Source: a virus
Length of the DNA: 24,690 bases
Virus record (IMG/VR): IMGVR_UViG_3300042691_009253
Location: 1-24,690 of that record
Direction: 5' to 3' (one strand)
Position numbers and translations under genes: made by a program. Position 1 is the stretch's first letter. The number at the start of each line of letters is the position of its first letter. Below the pieces are notes generated by a model. The model did no database searches, was not told the origin of the DNA, and was given only the letters and a program-made list of their open reading frames with translations. Below, piece after piece: positions 1-24,690 of this stretch.

Positions 1-633
1 AGTCAATGAAAATGTCGCAAGCGTGGTGTTCCACGAGTTAGTCCCACCGCGAGTAAACTTTCGCAGATAGGTTGTCCAGGTTCCGCCACTTCCAAGATTC
101 TCTTTCACGACGAATGAAGTTCCAGCAGCGAATCCTGCACCGCCAATCTGGTCAACAATCGTTGAGCCAGCAGCAACAGGTGAAAGCGAGACGGTGGCAA
201 TCGCTGTTGTGTTTCCAATATCCCAAGTGTAGAGGGTACGATTTGATGCAGAATAGTTGTTGTGATTGCTAATGGTCATAAAAGTTGATCCGCCGCAACT
301 AACGCCGATGCTAGCCGCACCAGATCCAGTCGCATATGCGAAAGCAGCAGTGCCAGCAGATGCTGTTGAGAATGTCGCTGTTGCCGTGCTAAGCGAAAGC
401 GCGCCGCTGGACGCTACGGCGGCAAATGTGGCGCCACCAGATCCGTTCGCAGTCAGCACCTGACCATTGGTTGCGCCAGTTGATTTAAGCGCAGTGCCTT
501 CAATCCGCGCGCCAGCATCAGCTGCGCCAGTATGCGTGTGACCTGTGCTTGCATCAAGCACATCGCTGCGAAGATTGTTGTATTGAGAGGCAAGCGCGAC
601 GCTGCCTGCTGTTACGGTACCGCTATTAGGCAT
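1..633 (-). CDS. Tail fibre protein, 3' end cut by window edge
   Basis: An open frame of 211 codons runs from an ATG at 633 to the window edge with no stop. AGGAGG and GAGGG lie upstream of the start. The N-terminal part carries a QYNNLRSDVLDA segment followed by a GHTHTG motif, GARIEGTAL and GQVLTANGSGG. This pattern is common near the start of siphophage tail fibres, where His-rich turns precede beta-repeat shafts. The rest is rich in Gly, Ala, Ser and Thr, as expected for a fibrous beta structure. It follows the other tail tip genes, so a role in the distal tail or host recognition is likely. The receptor-binding end lies outside the window. Confidence 0.75.
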   Translation of the reverse strand, partial: MPNSGTVTAGSVALASQYNNLRSDVLDASTGHTHTGAADAGARIEGTALKSTGATNGQVLTANGSGGATFAAVASSGALSLSTATATFSTASAGTAAFAYATGSGAASIGVSCGGSTFMTISNHNNYSASNRTLYTWDIGNTTAIATVSLSPVAAGSTIVDQIGGAGFAAGTSFVVKENLGSGGTWTTYLRKFTRGGTNSWNTTLATFSLT

Positions 634-647
634 GTTCCCTCATCCTC

Positions 648-1577
648 CTAGGCTGTTGTAGTCAGCGCCCAGCTGACATTAAGAATTGAATTGGGTTCCT
701 TGTAGATACCGCTCCCAGCGGCATAGCCAGTGATTGCCAAAAGATTTCCAGATCCATCTTGTAAGCCAAGTACATAGAATGTTTCGCCGATTGCGTCAGC
801 GAGCTGCCAGGTTGCAGAAGCAGTAACTGTTCGCGTTGAGCGCGAACGGGTAACAGCCTTGCTGTCATAAACCGAAGGAACAGCTGTAGCTGCGCTCGTG
901 ACATCCAGGTTTCCGTTCACAACAAATGCGTTATCAATGTATGCAGTCGCAGTGCCAGCCGTGCCAGCAACCAGGCTCAATCCGATCCCAGACGCAGTGG
1001 TCCACGATGGTGCGCCTGCGCTGATTGCAAAGCTGCTAATCGGCACGCGACAGCGCGCCCATGTAGCGTCGGCGAAGGTAACTCCAGCCGATGTTTCTAG
1101 GTCAGAAAGCGTAATGCCGTAGTACGACGAGGCGTTACCCGCACTAAAAATGCGAAGCTGGCTAGAAGCCTTATCTACGCGCGTAACAGTGGTAAAGCGA
1201 AGCCATAGCTCAATTGACGATCCAGTTGGAACATTTGTAGACGCGATAGTGCTCGCGTCGTAGACATACTGTGTTCCGCTAGCAGGAGCTTCAATCTTAA
1301 ATGCGCCGACGCCCTGGCGGTAGATGCCAGAGTCAAGCGTCGCGGTTCCAGTAAACCCGCTGGTTGAGTCAAAGTCGTAGATGCGCGGACCACCGCTGCT
1401 AGTCTGAATGGTTGTAACCGTAAGCGTTCCAGCTTCTCCAGCTAGCGCCGCTGCGATTCGTTCAGCCCCAACCAGTGTGAATGTGTTGGTCTGCACCTGG
1501 TTAATGAGGCTACCGTCTGGACGCGTAAGCGCCGTTGTGACGATACCGCTTGGCTTCATGATCGTGTCTTTAAACAT
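648..1577 (-). CDS. Putative receptor-binding or minor tail protein with jelly-roll-like region
   Basis: Encodes about 309 residues, almost all predicted beta strand (many Thr, Ser, Gly, Ala). I place the start at ATG 1577, one base after the preceding stop. An ATG at 1598 in the same frame is possible but has no spaced ribosome site. Residues about 60-225 resemble a carbohydrate-binding, LamG-like sandwich: a YDFDSTSGF opening, paired aromatic strands such as SIELWLRF, and a closing TATAYIDNAFV strand. The C-terminal 80 residues form a second beta region ending in SWALTTTA. Its place between the tail hub and a fibre gene suggests a tail tip adhesin. The family assignment is inferred from composition and context only. 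Confidence 0.6.
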   Translation of the reverse strand: MFKDTIMKPSGIVTTALTRPDGSLINQVQTNTFTLVGAERIAAALAGEAGTLTVTTIQTSSGGPRIYDFDSTSGFTGTATLDSGIYRQGVGAFKIEAPASGTQYVYDASTIASTNVPTGSSIELWLRFTTVTRVDKASSQLRIFSAGNASSYYGITLSDLETSAGVTFADATWARCRVPISSFAISAGAPSWTTASGIGLSLVAGTAGTATAYIDNAFVVNGNLDVTSAATAVPSVYDSKAVTRSRSTRTVTASATWQLADAIGETFYVLGLQDGSGNLLAITGYAAGSGIYKEPNSILNVSWALTTTA

Positions 1578-1578
1578 A

Positions 1579-3369: not shown

Positions 3370-3377
3370 GCTGCCTC

Positions 3378-3782
3378 CTAGCTAGTGCGCGCGTCAACCT
3401 CAACGAGCACAATCGTGAAGTCTGCTTTGGTCACATCTGGATAGACGGTACTCAGTTCGCTTATCTCTTCAATGCGTACAGGAACGGCTGTCTGCGCGTC
3501 CGTCCACGGACCGCCAGACCAGAGGAAATCAGAAGTAGTCTGCCCTGAGATATTCGCCCAGTAAAGATCAACCAGGGATTCCCAGACCGATACATTGGCG
3601 TATTCAAATGCCAGAACATATCGGTATCGGTAGCCAACAGACCAGCTTCGGATTGATCCATTGATGGTCATGCGGCTACCACCGACAGACTCCCACGCCA
3701 GGCGCGTCTGGTTAGATCGTGCTGGGTACGGAAGAATGATTGTTGAAGCGCCAGAGGCTAGCTGTGGCTGTGAAACGCTCAT
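3378..3782 (-). CDS. Small tail protein, possibly distal tail protein
   Basis: A 134-residue beta-rich protein. Its ATG overlaps the tape measure stop as ATGA, so translation is probably coupled. Features visible are TRLAWESVGG near the N-terminus, then SWSVGYRYRYVLAFEY, and a conserved-looking DFLWSGGPWTD segment. It lies directly after the tape measure and before the hub protein, the position of distal tail (Dit-like) proteins in siphophages. It is shorter than typical Dit proteins (about 200-300 residues), so it may instead be a tail tip connector of another family. Confidence 0.5.
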   Translation of the reverse strand: MSVSQPQLASGASTIILPYPARSNQTRLAWESVGGSRMTINGSIRSWSVGYRYRYVLAFEYANVSVWESLVDLYWANISGQTTSDFLWSGGPWTDAQTAVPVRIEEISELSTVYPDVTKADFTIVLVEVDARTS

Positions 3783-6295
3783 ACTCCCGCGCCCCTCCTA
3801 ACTACTGGCTGAACCGAATATCTACGGCGAGTCTCATCTTCCATGGCGGTAAAGATTCTGCGTGCGAACTCGCGGGCATCTGCTCCAGACCCAAGGAACG
3901 CGCCAGCCTGCACGGTGACATTGATGCCGCCGACGCCGCCTGGAATAATCTGTCCGCTCATGTTCGGAACGAAAAGCTCTGGACCATTCTCGCCAACGAG
4001 ATAGCGGTTAGAAGCCGTGACTGGACCGCCCATAGCGCGACCGCCAAACTGACCAGGCAGTGGAACTGCTGGAGTTCGTGCCGTGGCAGTTCCAGCGGTT
4101 CCGCCCGTACCGCTGCTGCCCTTACCTCCGCCGCTTAATGGGTAACCGCTGCCGCCGCCGCTGCTGCCGCCGCCGCCATATCCTGGACCGCCCGCTCCGC
4201 CTGCATTTCCCTTTGGAACAGCCGTCTGCTTCCCAGAAAGTTCACTGATTAGTGCGATGGCGGTACGAAGAATCCCGATTAGATTTTCAATTCCTTTGAT
4301 GATCGGACCGATGGTGATGTCATATACAAATTTGATGGCATTAAAGACATCGCCAATGACCTTAAATGCCTTCTTGACATCCTCAGCAATCTTCGTCCAA
4401 TCCTTCATGCTCTTGGCGAATTCGCTATTCTCAGAAGCAACTGGCTCAATGCCATTCTTATCAAGATCTTCATAAGTCTTGAGCTGGTCTTTAAGCTTTG
4501 CGATCTCAGCATCAATGCTAGCAATGACAGCATTGGAGGATGTCTTTGCGCCTGCTGCGCGCTGCTTCTGGCGCTCAAGTTCGCGCTCTTGCGCGGCGAT
4601 CTGCTTGGCTTCCTGCTGCGCCCTGATTGCATCCTGAACCTGAGCAAGCTGAATTTCAATCAACTGGATAGCCGTTGAATCACCCCTGGCGCGCGCGATT
4701 TCCAACTGCGAATAAAGATTATCCTGAATGTTTTGAAGTGCGGCAATGTTTTGATTGAAGTTGTAGTCTGCCTCTGCAAGTTTCCGAATCTCTTCGGAAG
4801 CTTTCTGGGCTGCTTCAATCTTGGCGCGCTGCTCAGCGATTGCAGCCTGACGCTTGACTTCAAGCTCAAATTCTACAACGCGCTTTCGCGCCTCTGCGAT
4901 AGCCTTATCAAGCCGAACTGCTTCCTCAGCCTGCTGCTCTAGTAGACGCTGCTCGCGGTTCGCGTAGTCAACGGCAATCTGGAACTGCCTGTCTGCATCT
5001 GCCTCAGCAGCAATGGCAAGATCGCGCTCGCCACGAAGCGCGTTAAGGTCCCTCTGATATTGCAGGCGCGCGTCAGCGGCAGCCTGCTCAGCCTCAGCAA
5101 TATTGTCCTGAAGTTCCTTGCGTCGCTGTTCAATCTGATACTGCTGCTCTGCTGCATCAAGACCAGCTAGCAGACCCTGGAACGCAGCCGAAGCCTGCTC
5201 CATCTGCGCCCGCGTCACATCGCGAAGTGCCGTCTGCTGCTCGCGCAGTTTTGCAATCTGCTTATTGATCTCGTTAGTAAGCCTGGAGTTCGCACCGCCA
5301 AGGCTGGATGCACCAGCCCCAGAACTCATGTACGCCGCACGCTGCTTCTGAAGCGCCTGAATTTGTGCAGCGATTCCAGCCTTTGTCGTATCAACGGCAG
5401 AGCCAGATGATCGGAGACTGTTGATAAACCCAGACATTGCATTCGTAGCGCCAAGAATGCCAGTAATAAATCCAGCAATTGCGCCAGCAACTTGCGAAAG
5501 CACTCTGATCAACCCTTCGCGATTCTCCATAACCCAGTTACGAATCGCGTTGACAATGTTGATGATTGACGGAAGGAGTTGATTTGCAAGGGCAATCTGA
5601 AGACCGTCTACGGTCATCCCAAGTAGGTTGAAGCTGCGATCTGCGTCTTCGGCAGCCCTGACCGTCTGGTCGGTTAGGACAAGTCCCATCTTCTCAAGCT
5701 CAGCAGCCGCGTTCGCAGCAGCCTCATCGGAAAGATTGAGATAGTCCATCATGGACAGCGCGCTTCGTCCGAACAGATCTACGGCTAGCGCAGTCTTCGC
5801 GGCGCCATCGCCCATCTTGCTCAACGCACTTCGCGTGTTATCCAGGATGCTTACAGTGTTAAGAAGATTCCCGCCACTGTCACGAATCTGAATACCAAGG
5901 GCATTGAACTTTGCTTCATTCGTGACGATCTCAGATGAGAGCGTTCGGAATGTGGTCGCAAGCCCATCGGTTGGAATGCCAAGAATCTTGAGCGTTCCAG
6001 CCAGGACAGAAGCCTGGGATGCGCTCGCGCCAGTGGCGTCGGAGATTGCGTCAATAGAGCGCGCGTATTCCAGCGCCTTCGGGACAGCCTGAGTGAATAG
6101 GTCCGTAACGCCACGAATGGCGTCAAATGCTACGCCAGCAACCCTCTGACCGATGCCCTGCCCGATACCCGTGAAAACATTGCCCAGCTGCTTCCCTGAA
6201 GCCTGGAGAAGATTGAACTGTTTCTTGACCTCACGAAAGGCTGGGTCAACAGCAGCTTTACCCTCAATGACAATGCCAACACGCTTATCAGCCAC
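3779..6295 (-). CDS. Tape measure protein
   Basis: An 838-residue protein that sets tail length and is probably ejected into the cell. It starts at GTG 6295 with TAGGAG five bases upstream. Residues about 60-250 match the TP901/PhageMin tail region (ARSIDAISDATGASASQ, DLFGRSALSMMDYL). A hydrophobic stretch at about 266-290 is followed by a long Ala/Glu/Gln coiled coil (about 305-620). A second hydrophobic stretch lies at about 655-690, and a Gly-rich linker at 698-735. The tail end has GGPVTASNRYLVGENGPE, very typical of tape measure C-termini. From its length a tail of roughly 120-130 nm would be expected (inference from the usual length per residue). Confidence 0.95.
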   Translation of the reverse strand: MADKRVGIVIEGKAAVDPAFREVKKQFNLLQASGKQLGNVFTGIGQGIGQRVAGVAFDAIRGVTDLFTQAVPKALEYARSIDAISDATGASASQASVLAGTLKILGIPTDGLATTFRTLSSEIVTNEAKFNALGIQIRDSGGNLLNTVSILDNTRSALSKMGDGAAKTALAVDLFGRSALSMMDYLNLSDEAAANAAAELEKMGLVLTDQTVRAAEDADRSFNLLGMTVDGLQIALANQLLPSIINIVNAIRNWVMENREGLIRVLSQVAGAIAGFITGILGATNAMSGFINSLRSSGSAVDTTKAGIAAQIQALQKQRAAYMSSGAGASSLGGANSRLTNEINKQIAKLREQQTALRDVTRAQMEQASAAFQGLLAGLDAAEQQYQIEQRRKELQDNIAEAEQAAADARLQYQRDLNALRGERDLAIAAEADADRQFQIAVDYANREQRLLEQQAEEAVRLDKAIAEARKRVVEFELEVKRQAAIAEQRAKIEAAQKASEEIRKLAEADYNFNQNIAALQNIQDNLYSQLEIARARGDSTAIQLIEIQLAQVQDAIRAQQEAKQIAAQERELERQKQRAAGAKTSSNAVIASIDAEIAKLKDQLKTYEDLDKNGIEPVASENSEFAKSMKDWTKIAEDVKKAFKVIGDVFNAIKFVYDITIGPIIKGIENLIGILRTAIALISELSGKQTAVPKGNAGGAGGPGYGGGGSSGGGSGYPLSGGGKGSSGTGGTAGTATARTPAVPLPGQFGGRAMGGPVTASNRYLVGENGPELFVPNMSGQIIPGGVGGINVTVQAGAFLGSGADAREFARRIFTAMEDETRRRYSVQPVVRRGAGV

Positions 6296-9635: not shown

Positions 9636-10871
9636 CTATCGGCGCTTTTCTAGTGCGCGACGCTGCTCACGGTTGAGCGCAACTGGCTTGCTAATTTCAT
9701 CCTCAAGCTGCTTGAGAATTGGTCTCCAGTGCTTTTCATAGACATAGTTGGTTTCATAATTCTTCATGAACGCCATCGCTTTTTCTTTTGTTTCGGCAAG
9801 TTCGGTTGGTTTCTGCTTCAGCTCATACGACTGCTGAAGTGAATCCATAATCTCTTTTACATTTGGCGTCATCCACCATCCGCCTTGCAGTGGATCGTAT
9901 TCAACTTGTCCGCCAACTTTCCATCCAGCGCCAACAAGTTCTGGCATTGCAGTCCACTCCGTTACCGCTGGTAACAGACCACATGCCTGACCCTCAATAA
10001 TGCTTACGCCAAATCCCTCGCCCTTTGAGCAGTGAAGAAGTATGTCACTTGCTGTATATAAACGAGCCATAACTTCTTGCGGTATACCCTGACGATATTC
10101 AAATTGCGGCACAACGCGCACGCGATCCATTGGCGCATTGCACGCCTGAAGAAGCTGCTCAATTTTTACGCCATTTGCAAGACCGAAGATATCTGTGTGC
10201 AGATAAAGATAGGCATCTTTCTTATCTTTTGCCCATGTTGACCAGGCAAGGATTTGTTCCCCCCAGCTTTTTCGCACGGGGCTGACCCCTTTATTGGCTG
10301 CTTGAATCATTGCCAAATGCGCGTCATCTGGAATGTTCAAGTCTTTACGAATATTAGATGGCGTTGGTTTATATATTGCTGGATTAAAACTATGCGGAGC
10401 ATAGAACACGCGCTCTCGCTCAACGCCAGCCTCAAGAAGTTCGCGCTCTCCGAATTGGCTCATGGCGATTGCCCACTTGCCTTTTCCGCGACGATCAAAC
10501 CATGCCTTTACTTCTGGCGGTACGACAGCATGATCTACTGGCGTCCATGATGCCATTGGGATTTCATCCCACTGTGGAGCCTTGTACACCCAGACATCGT
10601 AGAGCGATAAGCCCACCCCAGGAAGTTTTGGCTCTTGATTTAACCACCAAAGAATCTGCGCTGGGGTCAGATCGTTGCTGTACGCATCCATTCCCTGACC
10701 CATCATCGGGACGCCATTCCATTCAACGGTAGTACCAGCTAGACCGTAGTTCGCCATGATCGCCACAAGGTGACCGTCGCGCTTTAGTTGCGGAACAAGC
10801 TCAGACCCCTGGACGCCGTAGCCAGTATTTGACCAGAGAGCGTTCGTCGTAAAACCAATCCTGAGTGCCAT
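9636..10871 (-). CDS. Glycosyltransferase, GT-B fold, GT4-like
   Basis: A 411-residue protein starting at ATG 10871 with GGGGAGG upstream. The N-terminal Rossmann half starts with LRIGFTTNALWSNTGYG. The C-terminal half has VRVVPQFEYRQG, the YTASDILLHCSKGEGFG segment and E285-x7-E293 (GEGFGVSIIE), the sugar-nucleotide binding signature of retaining GT4 enzymes. The last 30 residues are basic and end in NREQRRALEKRR. Expected role is sugar transfer from a nucleotide donor to a protein or other acceptor. It is inserted between the major capsid and connector genes, so capsid or tail proteins are plausible acceptors (inference). Stretches of the gene look more AT-rich than its neighbours, which fits later acquisition. 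Confidence 0.85.
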   Translation of the reverse strand: MALRIGFTTNALWSNTGYGVQGSELVPQLKRDGHLVAIMANYGLAGTTVEWNGVPMMGQGMDAYSNDLTPAQILWWLNQEPKLPGVGLSLYDVWVYKAPQWDEIPMASWTPVDHAVVPPEVKAWFDRRGKGKWAIAMSQFGERELLEAGVERERVFYAPHSFNPAIYKPTPSNIRKDLNIPDDAHLAMIQAANKGVSPVRKSWGEQILAWSTWAKDKKDAYLYLHTDIFGLANGVKIEQLLQACNAPMDRVRVVPQFEYRQGIPQEVMARLYTASDILLHCSKGEGFGVSIIEGQACGLLPAVTEWTAMPELVGAGWKVGGQVEYDPLQGGWWMTPNVKEIMDSLQQSYELKQKPTELAETKEKAMAFMKNYETNYVYEKHWRPILKQLEDEISKPVALNREQRRALEKRR

Positions 10872-10962: not shown

Positions 10963-12144
10963 TTAGGCGGTTGCTGAAACGAGTACGCGAAGCGCGGTCA
11001 CATCAGGGATGTTTCCGTCAACGCTGTAAAGCGTTCGCACTGCGGTCTGAGCGTAATCAAAGCGGAATTCCGTTGAGGAAGCCACTTCAATTGGAAGCTC
11101 GCGAATGTAGTACGAAGGCGCGTGAAGAATCGCCACTGACTTGGACGCAGAAGCGACCGCCGCCATGTGGACATTCTCCTTAACGCGGAAGCCAAGGAGT
11201 GTGTCTGGCTGACCAACAACGAGACCAGGGGTCCAAATTGGCTGACCAGTTGTGTCCTGAAGCTTGCGAATCTTTGACATCGCGGTTGAAGCAACCTGCC
11301 ATTCGGTGTTCGCATTGCGATACATCGGCTGGAGGCTGTAAGCAAGCGTGATTACATCAAGTGCGTCAAAGAATGTTGAAGTGACCGTTCCCGACTTCGT
11401 TGCGGTTGAAAGCTGTGCATTGCCAGCAGCGGTGACAAAGCCAAGCGGCTGAGTCGTACCAGTGCCAAGCGTGCATGCCGACCCCGCGAGGAAGGCGATC
11501 TGGTTACCAGCGGATTCGCCCACAAGCTGCGTAATGTTCACAGCGTTATCGCGAATCAATTCGTTGCTGAGAAGCGTCAACGCAGCGATCTTATTTGCAT
11601 ACAGCGTAATGCTGCTGATTGTAGGATCGGTTGGCGTGATCTGGTTTCCCTCTGCGATGAACGAGGCAGACTGGTTAGCCGTGAGGCGTGGCACAGTGAT
11701 CTGCTCGCCAGTTGCAGTTCGCAGCTTCGTTGCGCCTTCGTACACGCTGTTGCCAGCGGTCAACGCGACCACAACAAAGTCAGCGAACGAGACAGGCACA
11801 GTGGCTGAGCCAGATGCAAGTGCGCGAATGTCAAACTTCGCGGATCGCTTCTCGCCCGATGCAACGGCACGGAGGACATCCGCGTCATTGTCAGCCTTAA
11901 CTGCATTCTCTACCTTGAGTGCGCGCTCAGCGAGTGCGTCAATCTTGGCAGCGCGCTCTTCAGCCTGCTCAACTGCATCCATCTTGGACTTCTTGTCCGA
12001 CATGGCGTCATTGAGCTTCGTCCAGCGCTCTTCCTCTTCAGGTGTGAACTCTCGCTTCTCATCGGTTGCCTTAGCAAGAAGGGCTTTCGCCTCTTCCCAG
12101 TCATTTCGGTAACCAGCGAAAAGCTTCTTTGAAATCTCCGACAT
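10963..12144 (-). CDS. Major capsid protein, HK97 fold
   Basis: A 393-residue protein starting at ATG 12144 with AAAGGA upstream. Residues about 1-100 are an acidic and basic coiled coil (PEEEERWTKLNDAMSDKK, EQAEERAAKIDALAERA), the delta or scaffolding domain normally removed by the prohead protease. The capsid core follows, with VPVSFADFVVVALTAGNSV, the E-loop region, ITVPRLTANQSASFIAEG, and KIAALTLLSNELIRD. The C-terminal P and A domain strands include AILHAPSYYIRELPIEVAS and FRFDYAQTAVRTLYSVDG. The preceding gene encodes the matching protease. Confidence 0.95.
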   Translation of the reverse strand: MSEISKKLFAGYRNDWEEAKALLAKATDEKREFTPEEEERWTKLNDAMSDKKSKMDAVEQAEERAAKIDALAERALKVENAVKADNDADVLRAVASGEKRSAKFDIRALASGSATVPVSFADFVVVALTAGNSVYEGATKLRTATGEQITVPRLTANQSASFIAEGNQITPTDPTISSITLYANKIAALTLLSNELIRDNAVNITQLVGESAGNQIAFLAGSACTLGTGTTQPLGFVTAAGNAQLSTATKSGTVTSTFFDALDVITLAYSLQPMYRNANTEWQVASTAMSKIRKLQDTTGQPIWTPGLVVGQPDTLLGFRVKENVHMAAVASASKSVAILHAPSYYIRELPIEVASSTEFRFDYAQTAVRTLYSVDGNIPDVTALRVLVSATA

Positions 12145-12241: not shown

Positions 12242-13327
12242 TCAAATTCGGTTGGGATCTAGCGCCATAAGCGCCAGCTGGCGTTCACGCACGCTAAGCG
12301 GAATGGCACGATCTGTGCCAGCCATCTCTTCGTCATCCATCTCCTCATCCTCTGCGCCCTCTTCGGCGTAGTAGTCCAGGATGGATCGCGCACGGTCCAT
12401 GACATCTTGCGGGATGTCCGTCTGTGGAAGTCGCGATGCAGCCGCATTCAATCCTGCGCGGACTGCAACAAGTTCGCCGCCGATCACATCGGCAAAGCCA
12501 AGCTTGTAGGAGCCGCGCAGCTCTGGGGCTGCCGCGTCGTAAACGAGGAACGCGCGACGGGCAATGGAGGGATCAGGATTCTCCCCATCAAAACCAGCCA
12601 GGGCGAAAACCCTTTCAGCGGCTGCTGCACCATCCCAGTCGCGCGTTTCGTCAATCTCAAGTTCGCGGTCTGCGCCGATAACCCAAGGGCTTCGGACTTC
12701 AGGCGCAACCTTTCGGATTGCAAGATCAATAACCTCAGCGTCATCCGACTCAACCTTCCCGTTCAGGAGATTGTCAATCGCATGCGTGAGCTTTGTCGGA
12801 TCAATGGAAGTTCGCAGAGAAAGTCCGCGCACGGCGCCCAAGCCAATCGTGGCTGGATACGCTGGGACATTTCCAGTGAGCAGCGAGATCTCGTGCAGGC
12901 GAACGGACTTCAGTTCGCGGACGCCCTCTTCGTTGTAGGCATCGCCGCCCGATGGCACGCTGAACCCGAAGCTTAGCCCCATGCTTGCGCCATCGCGCTT
13001 AAGCATTGCGGCAAGATCTCGTGCGAATGAAACCTCTGGATTGAGAGCGACGCGCACCTTAAGTCCGCGATCATCCTCTGAGACTTCCAGCGTTCCAGTC
13101 TTCGTAGAGCCAAGGAAGAGCTTTGGATCGTGGTCCTGGAGCGCCTTCACTTCCCATTCGCCGCGAGTAGCGGCAGCAACAGACTTGCTGAATGCCTTCG
13201 GCTTGATTACTTCGCGGAAGCCAAGACCTTCCGATTCGGTGTTGAACAAAGCGGCGTATGACTCAAAAGTGTAGCCATCGCCCTCAGCGCGGATCTCTGC
13301 CTGCGCTTGTCGGAATTCCATCGCCAT
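12242..13327 (-). CDS. Possible nested protease-only product from an internal start
   Basis: Inside the fusion gene, ATG 13327 (residue M171, start of MAMEFRQAQ) is preceded by AAGGAG at a nine-base gap. This is exactly where the protease core begins. It would give a 361-residue protease without the two N-terminal domains. The two Met codons in a row and the domain boundary favour real use, but only the sequence supports this. Confidence 0.45.
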   Translation of the reverse strand: MAMEFRQAQAEIRAEGDGYTFESYAALFNTESEGLGFREVIKPKAFSKSVAAATRGEWEVKALQDHDPKLFLGSTKTGTLEVSEDDRGLKVRVALNPEVSFARDLAAMLKRDGASMGLSFGFSVPSGGDAYNEEGVRELKSVRLHEISLLTGNVPAYPATIGLGAVRGLSLRTSIDPTKLTHAIDNLLNGKVESDDAEVIDLAIRKVAPEVRSPWVIGADRELEIDETRDWDGAAAAERVFALAGFDGENPDPSIARRAFLVYDAAAPELRGSYKLGFADVIGGELVAVRAGLNAAASRLPQTDIPQDVMDRARSILDYYAEEGAEDEEMDDEEMAGTDRAIPLSVRERQLALMALDPNRI

Positions 13328-13837
13328 GTGTTTCTGCTCCTTACGCTCAGCGTTTTGGACAATATTGTCTGCCCATCGCTTGCCACTGTCTCCGCCCCAG
13401 AGCGACCATGCGATCCTTCCATTGGAAGGGTACCCGTCTTCTCCAGGGCTGAAGCCTTCTGCCTGCTTATCTACTTCATGGCGTGCAAAGAAGCTTGCCA
13501 TGCGCTGTACCGTTTCAAATGGGAGATTGCGCCCGTTCACGATGTCTCGCGCTCGTGCAATTCCAACCTCTGTTCCGCCGCGACCGAACTCGCTGCGCCA
13601 GTCAAGCCCGCGCTGGGCTTCGTCTTTCATTTCCCCTGTCGGCGTGTAGCCGTCTGGATCAATCGGAGCGCGCACGGCACGCTCTCCACCTGGCTCAATG
13701 CCCTCAGCCAGAGAGACCGCGACCATCTGATCAATGGCGTCCTGCTTTGTGGCGTGGCAGCCAATGACTTCGCCGTCATCCTTGACGGTAGCCCAGCCAC
13801 TGCAATCAGCAGCCTGATCAGTAACGAAGTAGGGCAT
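12242..13837 (-). CDS. Multidomain prohead protease (HK97/S78 family) with N- and C-terminal extra domains
   Basis: A 531-residue fusion; its ATG overlaps the previous gene's stop. Residues 1-45 form a small domain with CSGWATVKDDGEVIGCHATK. Residues about 70-160 contain RGLDWRSEFGRGG and GRIAWSLWGGDSGKRW, a module often found in phage head proteins. The protease core (about 172-340) has the expected triad positions H236 (ALQDHDP), S285 (GASMGLSF) and E316 (LHEISLL). Residues about 380-505 hold RDWDGAAAAERV and ELRGSYKLGFADVIGGEL, a domain also seen at the end of other phage proteases. The C-terminus is very acidic. It should cleave the capsid delta domain. An internal start at 13327 may make the protease alone. 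Confidence 0.9.
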   Translation of the reverse strand: MPYFVTDQAADCSGWATVKDDGEVIGCHATKQDAIDQMVAVSLAEGIEPGGERAVRAPIDPDGYTPTGEMKDEAQRGLDWRSEFGRGGTEVGIARARDIVNGRNLPFETVQRMASFFARHEVDKQAEGFSPGEDGYPSNGRIAWSLWGGDSGKRWADNIVQNAERKEQKHMAMEFRQAQAEIRAEGDGYTFESYAALFNTESEGLGFREVIKPKAFSKSVAAATRGEWEVKALQDHDPKLFLGSTKTGTLEVSEDDRGLKVRVALNPEVSFARDLAAMLKRDGASMGLSFGFSVPSGGDAYNEEGVRELKSVRLHEISLLTGNVPAYPATIGLGAVRGLSLRTSIDPTKLTHAIDNLLNGKVESDDAEVIDLAIRKVAPEVRSPWVIGADRELEIDETRDWDGAAAAERVFALAGFDGENPDPSIARRAFLVYDAAAPELRGSYKLGFADVIGGELVAVRAGLNAAASRLPQTDIPQDVMDRARSILDYYAEEGAEDEEMDDEEMAGTDRAIPLSVRERQLALMALDPNRI

Positions 13838-14100
13838 CAGTTCGGCTGATACAGGTAGTAGGAAATTGCGTGCGTCATGCTGTCGGTCACACCGTACAGT
13901 GAATCATTTCGCCCAATCTTCAGCGTGACAGTTGCTCCAGCTTGTAGATTCAGCCCAGTTGCGGTTGTGACATCGCTTCCGCCAAGCCACACATCTTTCC
14001 CCTTTGTCACGATTGTGATCTCCGCCTTGTCTGAATTTGATGGCGCGAGAATTAGCGTTGCCGCTGTTCCAACGGTTACTTGATTTACAGAGAATGGCAT
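13837..14100 (-). CDS. Small beta-rich head protein, possible decoration protein
   Basis: An 87-residue protein. Its ATG overlaps the portal stop as TAATG, and its own stop overlaps the start of the protease gene. The sequence alternates strands: VTVGTAATLILAPSN, then AEITIVTKGKDVWLGGSDVT, QAGATVTLKIGRNDSLYGVT and a final HAISYYLYQPN. The LGGSDV and DSLYGV motifs are common in small phage head or tail beta-sandwich proteins. A capsid decoration or minor head role is plausible from its place between portal and protease. The exact function is not known. Confidence 0.6.
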   Translation of the reverse strand: MPFSVNQVTVGTAATLILAPSNSDKAEITIVTKGKDVWLGGSDVTTATGLNLQAGATVTLKIGRNDSLYGVTDSMTHAISYYLYQPN

Positions 14101-15422
14101 TAGAGTCCCTCTGGCTGTACGGTTACTGGCGAAGCGCCAGTGTGCTTGACTCCACTAATTCCAGCAGCCTTGGCTGCATCGGCTGGGTTGTATCCAGCCC
14201 GCACAAGGATTCCTGCGATATCGGCGCGCTGTCGCAGATCCGCTGCGTCAGCAGCAGCCTGGTTGAGCGGCATTCGGTAGACATCGCCGCCCTCAATTGG
14301 AGTCATGTCTTCCATCTTCCTAATGTCATTAACGCTGCTCCAGCCCTCCTGGATGGCAATGCGGTGAACCTCAGCCCGTGCCTGTGCGGTGCCGCGAAGG
14401 ATTGAATCCATGTTGAATCGCACGAATGCATCTGGCGGAAGCAGCAGCGTGGAGAGCTGTCGCTCAATCGCCTCCGTGAGCGGTCGCAGCGTGTATTGCA
14501 CGAACGCAAGGTTCTGTTGCTCAACGGATGAATATGACATCGCGCCAGGTGTCGTAACGCCAATCAGAACTGGCGGAACCCTAAAGATTCTGGCGATCTC
14601 CTCAGTTGAGAAGCCGCGCGATGCGAGAAGTTGCGTGTCTTCTGGCTTGAATGAAAGCGGCTTCCAGGTGCTACCGCCAGTCAAAACGCCAGGCGTGTGC
14701 ATGTTGGCGCCCGTGTGATGACGCAGCCAACCAGCCTTCAGCGTCTCTGCCTGCTCCTTCGTCAGCTCGTGCGGAACCTCAATGATGCCAGACGGCATGC
14801 TCGCGGATGCGAATAGCGACGCTGCACTTTCGTCTAGCGTCGCGCTAAGACCAAAAGTTCGGCGCAACTGCTCAATCGGATTGACTCCACGGAGTTCGCC
14901 TGGCATGGTGACCAGCGGAATGTGGATGATTGTTTCTTGACCGTAGACTACATACTCAGCGCCCATGCCCTGCTGCACGCGGTACTTTACTTCGCGCCCT
15001 TCGCGGAAGATTGTGACGCGACGCGGATCAATGACCCTGACTTCTAGAACTTCTCCGCTCTCCGCGCGCGGGCAGTACAGGAAGGTGTTCCCCTCTGTGA
15101 AGAGGCTGACGATCACTTCCGAAATAAGTTGATTGAAAGTGTAGCCAGGCTCATCTGGAATCGGAACGAGCATCCACGATGGCTTTTCACCGCCTGGGCG
15201 ATACGGACGGCGCACGCCTCCCGTGCGAATAAATGCGTCGGCAGGGAAGCTACTGACCACATCTGCCAGCAATCGCACCGATGCCCATGCGCTGCTTAGT
15301 GCAAGCGCGCCCTTAGCATCCATGCTCGTGTTCGCAAATGGAACGCGGTCAAATTTAAGACCCTGAATATTCGTGATCGCGCGCTGGTCCTGTTCGCCAA
15401 GGATTCGTCGTAGAAGGCTCAC
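14100..15422 (-). CDS. Portal protein, HK97 gp3-like
   Basis: A 440-residue protein that forms the dodecameric DNA entry channel. The start is GTG 15422, overlapping the previous stop as GTGA, with AGCGAGG upstream. Typical portal segments are ALSSAWASVRLLADVVSSFP near the N-terminus, GNTFLYCPR in the wing, and GVNPIEQLRRTFGLS. The strongest sign is the C-terminal half: EEIARIFRVPPVLIG, then SYSSVEQQNLAFVQYTLRP and AIERQLSTLLLP. It follows the terminase and precedes the protease, the standard order. The C-terminal tail (AAGISGVKHTGASPVTV) is short and probably disordered. Confidence 0.95.
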   Translation of the reverse strand: MSLLRRILGEQDQRAITNIQGLKFDRVPFANTSMDAKGALALSSAWASVRLLADVVSSFPADAFIRTGGVRRPYRPGGEKPSWMLVPIPDEPGYTFNQLISEVIVSLFTEGNTFLYCPRAESGEVLEVRVIDPRRVTIFREGREVKYRVQQGMGAEYVVYGQETIIHIPLVTMPGELRGVNPIEQLRRTFGLSATLDESAASLFASASMPSGIIEVPHELTKEQAETLKAGWLRHHTGANMHTPGVLTGGSTWKPLSFKPEDTQLLASRGFSTEEIARIFRVPPVLIGVTTPGAMSYSSVEQQNLAFVQYTLRPLTEAIERQLSTLLLPPDAFVRFNMDSILRGTAQARAEVHRIAIQEGWSSVNDIRKMEDMTPIEGGDVYRMPLNQAAADAADLRQRADIAGILVRAGYNPADAAKAAGISGVKHTGASPVTVQPEGL

Positions 15423-15559
15423 TCGTTATTACCTCGCTTGTAGCCGATAGCGGCAAGAAGGATGCCAGCAGCAACCAGGAGGCTGAGCGGCTCAATAAGT
15501 ACAAGCCCACTGACGATCAGTGCGGCTCCGATAAGTTCAAGTGCGGTTGATTTGCTCAC
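15419..15559 (-). CDS. Small two-helix membrane protein between terminase and portal
   Basis: A 46-residue protein. I place the start at GTG 15559, which overlaps the terminase stop as GTGA. Two hydrophobic segments, ALELIGAALIVSGLVLI and LSLLVAAGILLAAIGY, are separated by a short EP turn, and the end is KRGNNE. Translation is likely coupled to the terminase and the portal (GTGA overlaps on both sides). Small membrane peptides are known in this position in some phages, but no function is established. It could affect the membrane during infection or be a pinholin-like peptide; neither can be shown here. Confidence 0.7.
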   Translation of the reverse strand: MSKSTALELIGAALIVSGLVLIEPLSLLVAAGILLAAIGYKRGNNE

Positions 15560-17055
15560 AGGCTTATAAACTCCGCTGTAGGCTTCTTTACCACATGTTG
15601 CGAATGATACTTTGCACGGTCCCAGCTCATGATCGCGCACACTGCTGCGTCAATTTTCCTCGCGCTACCTTTGTGCTCTTTTACTACGCGTGGACCGAAT
15701 CTGTCAATCTTAACAGTGCAGTTATCAAGATGCCTTGCAAGCACTGGATCGCCGTTGTGTGAAAGTTTTTCTTGTGCAACTGCGTCCGCGAAGCCCGCAC
15801 AGGCAGGCACCATTCGCGCAGGATTTTGACTGTATAGGACCACTGGCAAGCCATCGGCTTCCCACTTCTGTAGGACAGAAGCCCATCGGTATGGGTCAGC
15901 TGCGATTTCTCGCACCTGATAGGTCTTGCAGATGTCGTACATCTTCGCTTCAACTTCGTCCATTGGAACTTGCCAATGCGGATCGCCAATCGGCTTTTCC
16001 CAAATTGCAAGCGTCTGGATGTATCCGTCTAGCGTACACGCGGTGATGGCTGAGCAGTCATTTGAGAAGGCGCCATCAAACGCAAGAACTACTTCTTCGC
16101 CTTTATTCAACTGTCGTTCAACTGCGAGACGATCCCAAGCGCCTTGCGGAAGCCATGCAGTGTTCGTTGTGGTCCACTGATTTAGCCGCTTAGTCCTCAG
16201 CTCCATTTCGCTAATGGACTTGACTGCGCTCTCAAAATCTTCTGGGTTCAGGTAATCGCCGTAGGCTGGATTTGCAGCAGCCCAGACCGCTGGGTCGCGG
16301 TAGTCGGCGCCGTCTGGAGCGCCCCACCATCGGAAGAAGAATGTTGGATCTTCAATCTCGCCAGACTTGACGCGCATCCCGTATTGCCAGAGCTTGTAGC
16401 AGATCGTGTCTTGCCCGTGGCTGTCGGTGCGGCTTCCCGCCGTTGTGATCGCCACAATCAGCGGCTGCTTGCGCGTTCCAGAACCCAGGTTGATGGTGTT
16501 CCAGAGCCTATCGTCTGGCTGGACATGCAGCTCGTCTACGACCGCCAGCGAAGGGTTGAGACCCTCAGCGCGGGAGGCGTCGGCGGAGAGCACGCGGAAC
16601 ACCGATCCGTTCGTTGGATACTCAATCACATCGCGCATTACGCGCAGGCGTTGGCTCAAGATTGGATCAAGCTGAACCATGCGTGCAGCTTCAGAAAAGA
16701 TAATGCGCCCCTGCTGTCTGTCTCCAGCTAGAGCATAAACTTCAGATCCTGGCTCATCAAGAATTAAGCCATGCAATGCGATGCCTGCACCCAAAAGTGA
16801 TTTACCATTCTTCCTAGGTAGACCAATGAGTGCGCGTCGGTGTTTACGAAGTCCGTTTTCGTCGGTCGCGTAGAGTTCGCGTAAAAGCGTTTTTTGCCAT
16901 GGTCGCAGTTGTATAAGTTGTCCTGCAACATCGCCTTTAGTTAATCGGCAGAAGTTCTGGATGAAGTCAATGACTTGATCGCCCTGGCTAGCGTGCTCGC
17001 TTTGCTGCGCTGATGAGCGCGTCAAGTTTCGCTGCCGCCGTGTTCGCTTCGCCAT
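15556..17055 (-). CDS. terL: Terminase large subunit
   Basis: A 499-residue ATPase and nuclease that packages DNA. I choose ATG 17055 with AGAGG upstream over a GTG at 17064, which lies too close to the site. The ATPase has a Walker A-like GLPRKNGKS at 78-86 (lysine-rich variant seen in this family) and Walker B LAVVDELH ending at 177. The coupling motif is probably VAITTAG near 204. The RNase H-like nuclease has candidate metal ligands D327 (LAFDGAFSND), D387 (EIAADPYRW) and D469 (KIDAAVCAI). It overlaps the end of the small terminase gene by 68 bases. Confidence 0.95.
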   Translation of the reverse strand: MAKRTRRQRNLTRSSAQQSEHASQGDQVIDFIQNFCRLTKGDVAGQLIQLRPWQKTLLRELYATDENGLRKHRRALIGLPRKNGKSLLGAGIALHGLILDEPGSEVYALAGDRQQGRIIFSEAARMVQLDPILSQRLRVMRDVIEYPTNGSVFRVLSADASRAEGLNPSLAVVDELHVQPDDRLWNTINLGSGTRKQPLIVAITTAGSRTDSHGQDTICYKLWQYGMRVKSGEIEDPTFFFRWWGAPDGADYRDPAVWAAANPAYGDYLNPEDFESAVKSISEMELRTKRLNQWTTTNTAWLPQGAWDRLAVERQLNKGEEVVLAFDGAFSNDCSAITACTLDGYIQTLAIWEKPIGDPHWQVPMDEVEAKMYDICKTYQVREIAADPYRWASVLQKWEADGLPVVLYSQNPARMVPACAGFADAVAQEKLSHNGDPVLARHLDNCTVKIDRFGPRVVKEHKGSARKIDAAVCAIMSWDRAKYHSQHVVKKPTAEFISL

Positions 17056-17476
17056 CCAATTCACCTCTCAAGCCGCTGCGTGCCGCAGGGGTTAGTCCAA
17101 GCTTAGAGGCAAGCTGGAGCATAAGCACGGCATTGTCGCGAACGATTTGGTGGAGCGGTGACTTTACGACCTCGCCGTTCTGACCCCGCGTGAGCGGTCC
17201 AGTCTCCAAATACATTTGCTCCGCTTGCCTGTACCGAACAGCCGCTTCGCAATAAAGCCGAAGCGTATGAAGATCCGCCGAAGTCAACATGCCCGTGTGA
17301 GCCACTGCCTCAATGACTTCTTCCCAGACTACGCGAGCCTGGACGGACAAATCCTCTGGCGGAGAGAAGTTAGCGCGCTTTGGAAGCGGCTCTTCGTAGT
17401 TAACACGGCTGGGTCTGGTCTCGCCTTTGAGCAGCTTCAACCGTGAAGGCTGAGGCGCTGGACCGCGCTGTCCCAC
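16988..17476 (-). CDS. terS: Terminase small subunit, P27 family
   Basis: A 162-residue protein starting at GTG 17476. It opens with GQRGPAPQPSRLKLLKGE and PKRANFSPPEDLS, strongly typical of P27-like small terminases. Helices follow (LTSADLHTLRLYCEAAVRY, AVLMLQLASKLGLTP), ending in a Lys/Arg-rich tail. It recognises phage DNA and recruits the large subunit. It follows the HNH endonuclease after a 127-base gap. HNH proteins next to the terminase assist cos cleavage in related phages, so a cos site near here is likely. Confidence 0.9.
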   Translation of the reverse strand: MGQRGPAPQPSRLKLLKGETRPSRVNYEEPLPKRANFSPPEDLSVQARVVWEEVIEAVAHTGMLTSADLHTLRLYCEAAVRYRQAEQMYLETGPLTRGQNGEVVKSPLHQIVRDNAVLMLQLASKLGLTPAARSGLRGELDGEANTAAAKLDALISAAKRAR

Positions 17477-17603: not shown

Positions 17604-17918
17604 CTAGATGTGCTTTGTTCGTCGCGTCTTGCCGTAACGGGAATGACAGTCGGAACAGATAACTCTTAGGTTTCCAGGCTCGTTCGTACCGCCAAGACTC
17701 TGCGGGATAATGTGATCAACCGTCAGGTTCCGATCTCGCGAGCCGCATAGTTCACACCATGGTTGGCGAGCGCGAAGCATCGTTGACAATCGCTGCCATG
17801 CATATCCGTAGCCGCGCTGCGCTGTGGTCCCGCGTGCGCCACTGGTCTTAGGTAGCTTGTGTTTTGAACAGCGAGATCCGTTCGTCGGTATCCCGCATGT
17901 TAAGCATGGTTGAAGCAC
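17604..17918 (-). CDS. HNH endonuclease beside terminase
   Basis: A 104-residue protein. I start it at GTG 17918, because GGAG lies five bases upstream and PCLTCG is the usual beginning of these proteins; a longer frame upstream is only Arg-rich noise. A zinc-binding pattern is formed by C55, C58, C88 and C91. The HNH core is VDHIIPQ (D68 H69), N83 (GNLRVIC) and H92 (DCHSRYG). In phages with this arrangement the HNH protein works with the terminase in specific cleavage at cos during packaging. A lone homing-type nuclease is the alternative. Confidence 0.85.
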   Translation of the reverse strand: MLQPCLTCGIPTNGSRCSKHKLPKTSGARGTTAQRGYGYAWQRLSTMLRARQPWCELCGSRDRNLTVDHIIPQSLGGTNEPGNLRVICSDCHSRYGKTRRTKHI

Positions 17919-18186
17919 GGTGACTCCTCTGCGTCCAGGGCGCCTGCGCTGCCGTGCCAACGGCTGGCATGAGGCGCCAGCTCCTAACCGCAACACCATG
18001 CGCGTGGTCTGCGATGTATAAGACAGGGACAGCAAAGCCAGTCCCGTGCGACATTGTATTCCAGGGCGCCTTCATGTCGCGAGGCTTAATGCCCAGCAGA
18101 GTCAGCCTAGGTTCGTGATCTGCCTTGCGTGAAGAATACTACATCGCATCTTCACACATGTGTCAGATGTGTGGCACAGGTGTGAT
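17919..18186. other. Gap without a clear gene, upstream of the HNH gene
   Basis: Together with the 12-bp repeats this gap is 323 bases. It has a 10-bp palindrome ACACATGTGT at 18154-18163 beside further CACA/TGTG strings, and GC-rich palindromes such as GGCGCC. A minus-strand frame from ATG 18075 to 17848 (75 codons) lacks a ribosome site and overlaps the HNH start, so I do not call it a gene. The region may hold a promoter for the packaging genes or a cos-related site, but no clear -35/-10 pair was found. Confidence 0.4.
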
Positions 18187-19961: not shown

Positions 19962-19975
19962 AGTCCGCGCAAATC

Positions 19976-20494: not shown

Positions 20495-20706
20495 TACTGC
20501 TCCCGCGTCTCCACGCGAGACGAGATGATCGCCCGCTCAATCTCCGCGATGCCAGACACGATCTTGATGGCAGCGGTCACGCCATCCATGTAGCCGCTTG
20601 CGTAGTCGGTCTCTCCCAGGATCTTGCCGACCGTCTCGCGATGGTTGATCAGCTTGATGACCCTGGCTTCCACCGTGTCTTCTGCCTTAAGTTTACGAAC
20701 GGGCAT
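20494..20706 (-). CDS. Small helical protein
   Basis: A 70-residue protein starting at ATG 20706 with AGGAGA six bases upstream, overlapping the methyltransferase end by 14 bases. The visible pattern is RKLKAEDTVEARVIKLINH, then ETDYASGYMDGVTAAIKIV, and EIERAIISSRVETREQ. It looks like two or three helices. No signal or enzyme motif was seen. Function unknown. Confidence 0.65.
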   Translation of the reverse strand: MPVRKLKAEDTVEARVIKLINHRETVGKILGETDYASGYMDGVTAAIKIVSGIAEIERAIISSRVETREQ

Positions 20707-21301
20707 ATTCAATCTCCTTCCAGGTAGGTCCGCCATCTGGCTTTTGCCAAATCGTGATGTAGGAATCCAGGTTCGGCTTAACAGCAACTGCATCAAGCCG
20801 TGATCGGATGATCTCGCCCTTACCCCTACCGTCTGGGAAACAGTCATCCACGGCGATCACCGCCCCAGGCTCCAACTGGTCCCAGCAAATTGCAAGCTCA
20901 TCAAAATGGTGGAGTGCCGATCTTGCGGTGCCGTCCCAGTCCATTGAGTCCAAGTAGAGAAGATCAATGTCTTTCTTGTCTTTCATGTACATAAGGTTTT
21001 CAACGGAATCGCCGCAAATAATCCGCGCCCCTGGCACAAGACGAAGTGCCGTCTCGCACGCCTGCTTGTCTAGGTCAATAGATGTGAGACTTCCGCCAAC
21101 CTGAGAGATAACCCAGTCCCAGATCACCGTGCTCTGACCATCGCCGTCCCAATTGTCCCTAGCTCGCACGCAACCAGTCTCTACGATTTTTACTGGTCTT
21201 CCTAGCGAAAGAAGGTAATCGCAGATCATCTTGAATGCCTCAAATCTTGGCGTGCCGTACAGCACTGGAGCGAACCTCTGTTCAAAGCTTTCGCTACTCA
21301 T
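20693..21301 (-). CDS. Class I SAM-dependent methyltransferase, Methyltransf_24-like
   Basis: A 202-residue protein starting at ATG 21301 with AGGAG seven bases upstream. Motif I is VKIVETGCVR (37-46); motif II has the acidic SIDLD (74-78); a middle GDS (98-100) and the DLLYLDSMDWDG loop (113-124) follow. GAVIAVDDC (146-154) is the expected next strand. This order fits the Methyltransf_24 group, which often modifies small molecules or sugars rather than DNA. No DPPY or similar DNA-methylase motif is present. With a glycosyltransferase elsewhere in the genome, sugar or surface modification is a reasonable but unproven guess. Confidence 0.75.
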   Translation of the reverse strand: MSSESFEQRFAPVLYGTPRFEAFKMICDYLLSLGRPVKIVETGCVRARDNWDGDGQSTVIWDWVISQVGGSLTSIDLDKQACETALRLVPGARIICGDSVENLMYMKDKKDIDLLYLDSMDWDGTARSALHHFDELAICWDQLEPGAVIAVDDCFPDGRGKGEIIRSRLDAVAVKPNLDSYITIWQKPDGGPTWKEIEYARS

Positions 21302-21683
21302 CCTGCTTCTCCTTTGTGAAGTGCGCGACGAACTCATCAAGAGACATGATCACGATGCTGCGCCGACGCGTGCCAGGTCCAGGGCTATCGCCCATGATCA
21401 AGACGCGGATCTGGTCGCTCTTGGCTGGCACCTGGGTTAGCCAGTTCCACAGCCGCTCTGGAAAGCTCTTGCCAACCTTCGTCTGCGCGACGATGCTGCC
21501 ATCTCCAGATTGCACATCAATCTTCGTACCGAACTGACCGACGCGCATTCCACCAAGCAATGCCGCGACCTCCCTTTCATAACTGTTACCCCTTTGCCTG
21601 CTACGGCGTCCGCGAACGCGCTTCGCAGTCATGGCTGGATCTTCGTTCGCAGCCTGGATCTGTTGGTCTTTGAAGTAGCCCAT
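21294..21683 (-). CDS. PD-(D/E)XK-like nuclease, resolvase-like
   Basis: A 129-residue protein starting at ATG 21683, which shares a base with the preceding stop (TAATG). A second in-frame ATG at 21632 is possible. Basic N-terminus RGRRSRQRGNSYEREVA precedes the core: E36 (SYEREV), D56 (KIDVQSGD) and Q67-x-K69 (VAQTKVGKS). This is the PD-(D/E)XK pattern, with Gln in the usual acidic position of the last motif. Phage proteins of this type are thought to cut branched DNA or act in recombination. The variant residue leaves activity open. Confidence 0.7.
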   Translation of the reverse strand: MGYFKDQQIQAANEDPAMTAKRVRGRRSRQRGNSYEREVAALLGGMRVGQFGTKIDVQSGDGSIVAQTKVGKSFPERLWNWLTQVPAKSDQIRVLIMGDSPGPGTRRRSIVIMSLDEFVAHFTKEKQDE

Positions 21684-22558: not shown

Positions 22559-22578
22559 TTTCTGTACCTCCTTTTTCG

Positions 22579-22597: not shown

Positions 22598-22601
22598 TCT
22601 G

Positions 22602-22636: not shown

Positions 22637-22658
22637 CCCCTATTTTTGAGCACGATTT

Positions 22659-23058: not shown

Positions 23059-23060
23059 GC

Positions 23061-23258: not shown

Positions 23259-23821
23259 GCCTCCTCCTCTCCTGTCATCCACTCATGCAGTCTCACAAAT
23301 GTCTGGTTCGCGTCAAGGTGTGTCGTATCAAGTGACAGGTCAAAGCTGACCTTGTTCCATTCCTGTTCGGTAATGTCTTTCGGTCGGATGACGCCACCAC
23401 GCACGCGCCAGTTTCGCTTTGCCGCGTCAGCGTTCAGCTGCACGATCTTGAAGTTGCGGTTGAGCGCGCGAAGGAAGTCCACCTCGCGGACCAGGCGCAG
23501 ATCATCTACGACCACGCTGCGTCCCATCATCTTCGCGCCTTCATACTTTCGCAGCCACAGCTTCAGCCAGGCATCTTCGTCAACCGTTCGGATCGCCGCA
23601 CCAATGTCCTGGTACAGCTCGCGACCCTGGGCAAGCCAAAACTTTCCGTTGCGTGTCGTATCAAAAAGATTGCCCTTCTGAATTCCTGGATAGAACTGGT
23701 TGGCAATTTCCTTCACCGCATCCGCAATGCCAATGCGGACATAGTTCCGATGTTCAACCAGGTTCAGAGCCAGCGTAGTCTTTCCAGAGCCTTGTGGTCC
23801 AATGATCGCAATGTCGGTCAT
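23255..23821 (-). CDS. P-loop kinase, deoxynucleoside monophosphate kinase-like
   Basis: A 188-residue protein starting at ATG 23821 with GGAGG upstream. The Walker A is GPQGSGKTT (8-16). VVVDDLRLVREVDFL (103-117) fits the DR/E motif after the second strand, and the basic RNWRVRG (136-142) is a possible lid. The layout matches phage dNMP kinases such as T4 gene 1 type, which phosphorylate nucleoside monophosphates for DNA synthesis. A general AAA/adenylate-kinase-like protein remains possible. Copy C of the 69-bp element begins 29 bases upstream. Confidence 0.75.
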   Translation of the reverse strand: MTDIAIIGPQGSGKTTLALNLVEHRNYVRIGIADAVKEIANQFYPGIQKGNLFDTTRNGKFWLAQGRELYQDIGAAIRTVDEDAWLKLWLRKYEGAKMMGRSVVVDDLRLVREVDFLRALNRNFKIVQLNADAAKRNWRVRGGVIRPKDITEQEWNKVSFDLSLDTTHLDANQTFVRLHEWMTGEEEA

Positions 23822-23850
23822 TTGATTTCCTCCAAGTGATCCAAATGTTC

Positions 23851-23920
23851 CAGGTGTCTAGACATTCGCCAACGCATTTGCGTGGCTCTCCGTTGATCCT
23901 ACGGGGTCATTTTTCTGCAC
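23851..23920 (-). repeat. 69-bp intergenic element, copy C (70 bp)
   Basis: CAGGTGTCTA at 23851-23860 and GTTGATCCTA at 23892-23901 (41 bases apart, start to start). It overlaps the 3' end of the nuclease-like gene: the TAG stop of that gene is inside the first 10-mer. Between the two boxes is a dyad ACGCA-TT-TGCGT. GATCC-TACG-GGGTC followed by ATTTTTC (23895-23915) reads as a plus-strand hairpin. Start of the dNMP-kinase-like gene is 29 bases downstream on the minus strand. Confidence 0.85.
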
Positions 23921-24460
23921 ATCGCCCCAAAACTGGCGAATCGCAGCTTCGTCCAGGAATTGGCGGACTGGCACCAACCGACCGACATGCAGCCTAAGCC
24001 GCGTGCCGTGTCCGTAGTCATGCTGCTCGCACTCGCGCATGAAGCGCGCGCGGGAGCAGACGCCACCGACGCGGAAGGTGCCGTCAACTGGATGTCGGCG
24101 GTCCCCCAGCATCTGAACCAGGACAGCCGCGTCAGCTTTGAATGCCGCCGCATCGTCAAAGATCAGATCGGTGAGCGTTGATGTCTTGGCGTCCCAGGTC
24201 AGACCGAACGCCGTAAAGTCGGCGCCGCTGTCTCCAGCGTGACCGATCTCCCAGTTCAAGACATCGTAGTCCAGCCCGAACGCGGTTACTGCCGCCATCT
24301 CTCCCAGCCTTCCCATTAGGTCCACAGCCTCAGAGCTGCTATGTCTGTCATACCACTTATCTTTGACCAAGTGTTCCACCTTAAATGCCTGCTTCGCAGC
24401 AGTCCAGTCCAAGGCTCTCTTCAAAGAAGCTGGCGTCAAAGTCACTTCAGTCCAGTTCAT
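23858..24460 (-). CDS. PD-(D/E)XK-like nuclease
   Basis: A 200-residue protein. ATG 24460 overlaps the previous stop as ATGA. The core has E54 (RLGEMAAVTAF), D81 (SGADFTAFG) and D90-x-K92 (WDAKTS), the spacing and sequence style of the PD-(D/E)XK nuclease fold. The C-terminal half (VGGVCSRARFMRECEQ, GTRLRLHVGRLVPVRQF) is basic and probably binds DNA. The last codons are within copy C of the 69-bp element, so the repeat may have supplied the C-terminus. The specific reaction is unknown. Confidence 0.7.
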   Translation of the reverse strand: MNWTEVTLTPASLKRALDWTAAKQAFKVEHLVKDKWYDRHSSSEAVDLMGRLGEMAAVTAFGLDYDVLNWEIGHAGDSGADFTAFGLTWDAKTSTLTDLIFDDAAAFKADAAVLVQMLGDRRHPVDGTFRVGGVCSRARFMRECEQHDYGHGTRLRLHVGRLVPVRQFLDEAAIRQFWGDVQKNDPVGSTESHANALANV

Positions 24461-24690
24461 TTCAATCCTCGCTTCAGGATATTTGCAATAGTTTCTGGCT
24501 TATTAAAAGAATTAAGTCTCATGTCTCTTGTATCTTGTCTCTTGTCTCCTGTCTCTAGTCTCGCGCCGTTATTCCGCGTGACATCTGCCGTGACATGTCC
24601 GTTATCAAAACGCACTGTATCCGTGACAGACCTCTCCCGATGGCGCTGCTGTCGGAGGGCTGCGGTCGGATCAATCTGGAACTTCGCCCA
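24457..24690 (-). CDS. 5'-truncated protein with a coding 7-bp tandem repeat
   Basis: An open frame of 77 residues runs in from the right edge and ends at a TGA that overlaps the next ATG. It begins WAKFQIDPTAALRQQRHRER and ends NSFNKPETIANILKRGLK. The middle is strongly charged because the DNA is a heptamer repeat (about 6.7 copies of GAGACAA-like units at 24516-24562). Charged C-termini of this kind are frequent in phage replication proteins, but the missing part prevents any firm call. Confidence 0.7.
   Translation of the reverse strand, partial: WAKFQIDPTAALRQQRHRERSVTDTVRFDNGHVTADVTRNNGARLETGDKRQDTRDMRLNSFNKPETIANILKRGLK
24516..24562 (-). repeat. 7-bp tandem repeat inside a coding frame
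   Basis: On the minus strand the units are GAGACTA, GAGACAG, GAGACAA, GAGACAA, GATACAA, GAGACAT and a final GAGAC: 47 bases, 6.7 units. As 7 is not a multiple of 3, loss or gain of one unit changes the reading frame of the gene that contains it. Confidence 0.9.

Follow-up and report, generated by a model that had tools for sequence, protein, structure and literature searches.

The loss of restriction sites from phage genomes is an already known phenomenon, and such avoidance is usually partial; plasmids, too, reportedly avoid the restriction targets of their hosts. In a survey of phages, near-elimination of orthodox Type II sites was elevated only in non-temperate dsDNA phages; 3.9% of phage-site pairs were excluded, Type I and IIG sites showed no elimination, and few Type III sites were under-represented (PMC6286503, Rusinov et al. 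2018). Here, we analysed a window of 24,690 bp, which is the entire IMG/VR record IMGVR_UViG_3300042691_009253, a full-genome check being possible through relatives only. The window is like the surveyed cases in that observed/expected ratios lie below 0.1 at palindromic Type II sites, no integrase was found and escape from cutting would be cheap; it is unlike them in having four palindromes and an asymmetric word at exact zero, and in belonging to a family within which the absent set turns over. As with the plasmids, mobile DNA appears to have been shaped by the restriction systems met, although in this case elimination is complete and concerns a phage family. With five words at exact zero and a set that differs between close relatives, this is an unusually clean case with respect to completeness, number of words, fast turnover and the elimination of an asymmetric word.

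The closest named phage is the Pontimonas phage phiPsal1 (MG835450), which is 44% identical in the terminase, 37% in the portal protein, 34% in the capsid protein and 40% in the protease. It shares the head-gene order of the window, including a glycosyltransferase gene after the capsid gene; unlike the window, phiPsal1 has no eliminated word and carries an annotated N6 DNA methylase. Its own relatives have 0 or 1 eliminated palindromic word each. Among bacteria, the freshwater Thioflexothrix psekupsii D3 methylates GGCC, CCGG and CCGAG (PMC5578853), three motifs that match absent words of the window, while TCGA and ACGT are not in its motif list (PMC5578853); this comparison is made by motif and does not treat the bacterium as the host.

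Gene content of the window

The window is part of an uncultured lake siphovirus in which no integrase was found. Nearly all genes lie on the minus strand, in the order terminase, portal, prohead protease, HK97-type capsid protein, glycosyltransferase, head-tail genes and tape measure, and one end of the window holds genes of nucleotide metabolism and regulation. The annotated features are the following:

3779..6295, minus strand: tape measure protein (phrog_2276, 2e-16)
9636..10871, minus strand: group 1 glycosyltransferase, adjoining the capsid gene (PF00534, 3e-7; phrog_2170, 8e-32)
10963..12144, minus strand: major capsid protein, HK97 type (PF05065, 6e-43)
12242..13837, minus strand: prohead protease (PF04586, 9e-32)
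14100..15422, minus strand: portal protein (PF04860, 7.5e-74)
15556..17064, minus strand: terminase large subunit (Pfam TerL_ATPase, 1.2e-25; TerL_nuclease, 5.6e-23), used to find and order relatives
16988..17476, minus strand: terminase small subunit (phrog_83, 8e-33)
17604..18035, minus strand: HNH endonuclease near the terminase genes (PF01844, 3e-13)
20693..21340, minus strand: SAM methyltransferase-like gene, Methyltransf_24 (PF13578, 4.5e-6), not a recognised DNA methyltransferase

No match to the integrase and resolvase profiles PF00589 and PF00239 was obtained in 15 family records, which may be incomplete, and the head genes are those of a tailed phage. A preliminary description of the window had seen no DNA methylase gene. 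This holds for PF01555 and PF02086, neither of which has a match in the window, where the Methyltransf_24 gene is the sole methyltransferase-like gene; the search for PF00145 covered 25 relatives. DNA methyltransferases are present in four relatives (G007, G016, G019 and G024).

The glycosyltransferase is common to phiPsal1 and to the Microcystis phage Mae-JY09, at 32-34% identity. Mae-JY09 was considered through this match as a comparable case and set aside, since it displays no comparable avoidance. Besides, a domain of the prohead protease (residues 64-183) matches part of a protein in the Roseobacter phages CRP-821/831 at 67% identity, far above the remainder of the protein.

Words absent from the window

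The preliminary description had noted, from reading alone, that GGCC, CCGG, ACGT and TCGA appear to be absent, and the computed counts show that this is exact. Each word occurs 0 times on either strand, against maximal-order Markov expectations of 84 for GGCC (z -11.4), 70 for CCGG (z -10.3), 73 for ACGT (z -10.6) and 85 for TCGA (z -11.7). These are the lowest four z-scores among the 256 tetramers, the next lowest being -5.5, and when all 16 palindromic tetramers are compared with the Markov model, as had been proposed, the remaining 12 are close to expectation. The same description was right that other palindromes are frequent (GCGC 276, CGCG 273, GATC 161, AGCT 129, CATG 103, CTAG 55), that GGCGCC occurs more than ten times (18 copies) and that non-palindromic neighbours are common (TCGG 117, ACGG 88, CCGT 142, GGCG 126).

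Words could also become rare if the host favours certain nucleotides, dinucleotides or codons, and some dinucleotides of the window are indeed uneven (GG 0.66, TA 0.61). In order to hold proteins and codon usage fixed, synonymous codons were shuffled within the coding part (300 shuffles), which gave expectations of 96 for GGCC, 78 for CCGG, 69 for ACGT and 124 for TCGA, with a minimum of 53. Taking observed/expected below 0.1 with an expectation of at least 15 as site elimination, all four palindromes are eliminated (0 versus 69-124). Their one-mismatch neighbours, which share their dinucleotides, are enriched and not depleted (observed/expected 1.11-1.24), and ACGT is present in close relatives of similar composition. 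The effect is therefore word-specific: codon-fixed shuffles and slightly enriched neighbour words agree that neither composition nor CpG nor codon use gives rise to the zeros, and a compositional or codon bias, refuted by the codon-preserving null, has next to no chance of being the cause.

Zeros of this kind are rare elsewhere. As a control, we used an unrelated 14-mer to draw 44 IMG/VR contigs at random, none shorter than 8 kb, cut them to 12 kb and scored a tetramer as zero when its count was zero with an expectation of at least 14. No zero tetramer was found in 41/44 of them, one was found in 3/44 and none had two or more, while in the family at least one occurs in 28/30 contigs and at least two in 17/30, these contigs being related and not independent. 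Terminase-bearing loci from bacterial genomes have almost no eliminated words.

The four-word set proved correct as far as it went, all four words being gone, and incomplete in that the asymmetric pentamer CCGAG/CTCGG is eliminated as well. Under a stricter null, which exchanges synonymous codons but lets none of the four absent words arise (100 samples), 55.4 copies are expected and the lowest sample has 40, while the window has 0; the Markov expectation is 31. GGCC, CCGG, TCGA and ACGT are palindromic Type II targets, CCGAG being the exception. The survey saw no eliminated Type I or IIG site and few under-represented Type III sites (PMC6286503), which places CCGAG outside the usual rule. The methylome of T. 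psekupsii D3, in which CCGAG carries m6A from a Type III system (PMC5578853), establishes that such a motif does occur naturally, host identity not being implied. A system recognising CCGAG in the hosts of the window phage would probably be of Type III or IIG.

Weaker losses under the stricter null concern GGCGAC (0 versus 18), GACGAC (0 versus 17) and CTGCAG (0 versus 12.6), and the permitted palindromic hexamers are jointly low (216 versus 278 expected, sd 15). Asymmetric words of the CGAC type are selectively missing from the window: TACGAC occurs 29 times, A/C/GACGAC (VACGAC) 1/2/0 times, GGCGAC 0 times and CCCGAC once. In the clade A records G001 and G003-G006, the missing set is shifted to SACGAC and SCCGAC.

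Turnover of the absent set among relatives

The terminase of the window led to 74 IMG/VR viral loci, in which the absent words form a patchwork with its own set in each clade. Clade A comprises the window and 14 loci with terminases 88-95% identical. GGCC and TCGA are fully absent from all 14 other loci, CCGG is absent except for one site, and CCGAG is present in 0-2 copies per locus. One close relative of 33.8 kb (G005), from a Lake Soyang virome dataset (PMC7553992), has the same layout and 0 copies of GGCC, CCGG and TCGA versus 110, 105 and 105 expected. Within clade A, ACGT is at zero only in the window and in L006, L007 and L012. Clade B (terminase 72-75%) is without varying combinations of ACGT, CATG, AGCT, AATT, TCGA and GGWCC, one of its sub-groups being without GGCC, CCGG, AGCT and CATG, and in clades at about 55% terminase identity varying sets are missing that include CATG, AATT, AGCT, TGCA, GTNAC, GRCGYC and CTYRAG. 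Nearly all the words lost in other clades are Type II specificities. On the terminase tree, seven words each require a minimum of 2-7 changes. The absent set is thus changeable, and the other sets found in relatives are what turnover in the repertoire of encountered hosts would produce.

We also followed how ACGT sites differ between the window and four ACGT-bearing relatives, whose alignments allowed 38-56 sites to be placed. None of the relatives' placeable ACGT sites is kept in the window, whereas 24-84% of control words are kept. Of the aligned sites, 44-54% differ by CpG transitions to ACAT or ATGT and 14-29% by single transversions, giving AAGT, AGGT, ACCT or ACTT, the rest being mostly multiple changes. 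The large share of transitions, together with the over-representation of TTGA, TCAA and CTGG in the window, is what would follow if a host enzyme methylated the words and the methylcytosines then deaminated (CpG to TpG/CpA) without cutting exerting any selection. The ACGT substitution spectrum led us to reject deamination as the cause, since the transversions and the sites with at least two changes speak against it; moreover, deamination would yield partial and not exact loss across four words together, GCGC and CGCG remain common, and AATT, CATG and AGCT, which relatives have lost, contain no CpG. Such methylation-driven mutation is very unlikely, and the replacement pattern results from selection against the word and not from mutation alone. 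In the DNA tree, the ACGT-bearing clade is well supported and the ACGT-free rows are not firmly placed (AU test of whether they form one clade, p 0.116); on this tree the change could have run either way, as loss in the line of the window or as regain in the other line.

Several partial losses resolve into longer words. The ACGT-bearing relatives of clade A hold about half the expected number of ACGT sites, and in 10/10 of these loci YACGTR has 0 copies, versus 3-16 for RACGTY and 7-21 for mixed sites; five clade B loci have the same YACGTR pattern. MaeII and HpyCH4IV recognise ACGT, whereas BsaAI recognises YACGTR. Clade B offers a further example, in which partial loss resolves into palindromic hexamers centred on GGCC. 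Separately, in records G007, G009 and G012 (L088-L093), TCGA is left almost only as RTCGAG/CTCGAY (G009, G012) and CCGG mainly as DCCGGC/GCCGGH (G007, G012), with other contexts near zero; this survival looks rule-based and is not what merely adding up Type II sites would give.

A non-restriction host defence, or a DNA-binding process that recognises short words, might likewise remove their carriers. The absence of asymmetric words (CCGAG and some VACGAC-like words in the window, CTGA/CTGC in distant relatives) would suit such a process, but the palindromes are classical targets of Type II enzymes, sharply delimited and accompanied by nested degenerate variants (YACGTR, GTNAC), which makes it highly improbable. 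The HNH endonuclease at 17604-18035 could point to a nuclease encoded by the phage or by a co-infecting competitor, which cuts the words so that phages must be without them. A single HNH gene cannot account for five unrelated words, and the absent set varies among relatives that have their capsid and terminase module in common, so that a nuclease of this origin is an exceedingly slim prospect.

Probable host restriction, and phage methylation

The lineage has very probably been driven to purge the recognition sites of several host restriction-modification systems, largely of Type II. The preliminary description had attributed the missing words to selection in hosts with several restriction enzymes, and this remains supported as the only reading found to explain the exact zeros, the codon independence, the differing absent sets, the nested specificities and the losses by transversion. 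We infer that the host population carries restriction enzymes with these specificities and that they brought about the losses. The enzymes in play would be specific for GGCC (HaeIII-like), CCGG (HpaII-like), TCGA (TaqI-like) and ACGT (MaeII/HpyCH4IV-like), with the CCGAG system in addition, and their sites would have been removed mostly by synonymous changes. With no sites left, incoming unmethylated DNA would remain uncut and a phage methyltransferase would therefore be unneeded; as the host repertoires encountered turn over, relatives would come to differ in their absent sets.

Since the terminase searches found no host, the named enzymes are inferred from the absent words. Scanning GTDB contigs with the terminase as a single protein gave no match, and a terminase alignment scan of host genomes returned only relatives at ≤53% identity. 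The best cellular terminase matches are actinobacterial prophages (49-53%), other bacteria being lower, and 300 genomes from the family of a Microbacteriaceae MAG held nothing closer. No WhiB gene, a marker of actinobacterial hosts, was found, and no tRNAs occur in the phage records examined. From phiPsal1 and the actinobacterial prophages, an actinobacterial host is plausible.

Chances seem even that the words missing from each phage can be read, at high resolution, as a record of the restriction systems of its uncultured freshwater hosts, one that includes CCGAG-type Type III/IIG specificities and tells ACGT from YACGTR. Possible uses are the tracking of gain and loss of host defence pressure and the prediction of hosts of uncultured phages from missing words. 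The family may also offer a test of whether phages purge asymmetric Type III/IIG sites, which was hardly seen in the earlier survey.

Finally, three distant relatives (G016, G017 and G019; L094-L099) have nearly lost the non-palindromic CTGA (5/111, 2/61 and 0/98, respectively) and CTGC (1/69, 0/60 and 8/67), CTGG and CTGT being common. A 127-base direct terminal repeat in G019 (L098-L099) makes it probable that this record, about 32.5 kb long, is complete. In G017, where no methyltransferase was found, CCGG stands at 0 of 180, compared with 127 of 257 in G016 and 168 of 278 in G019, both with a C5-methyltransferase. These three genomes hint that phage methylation and word avoidance are alternatives.
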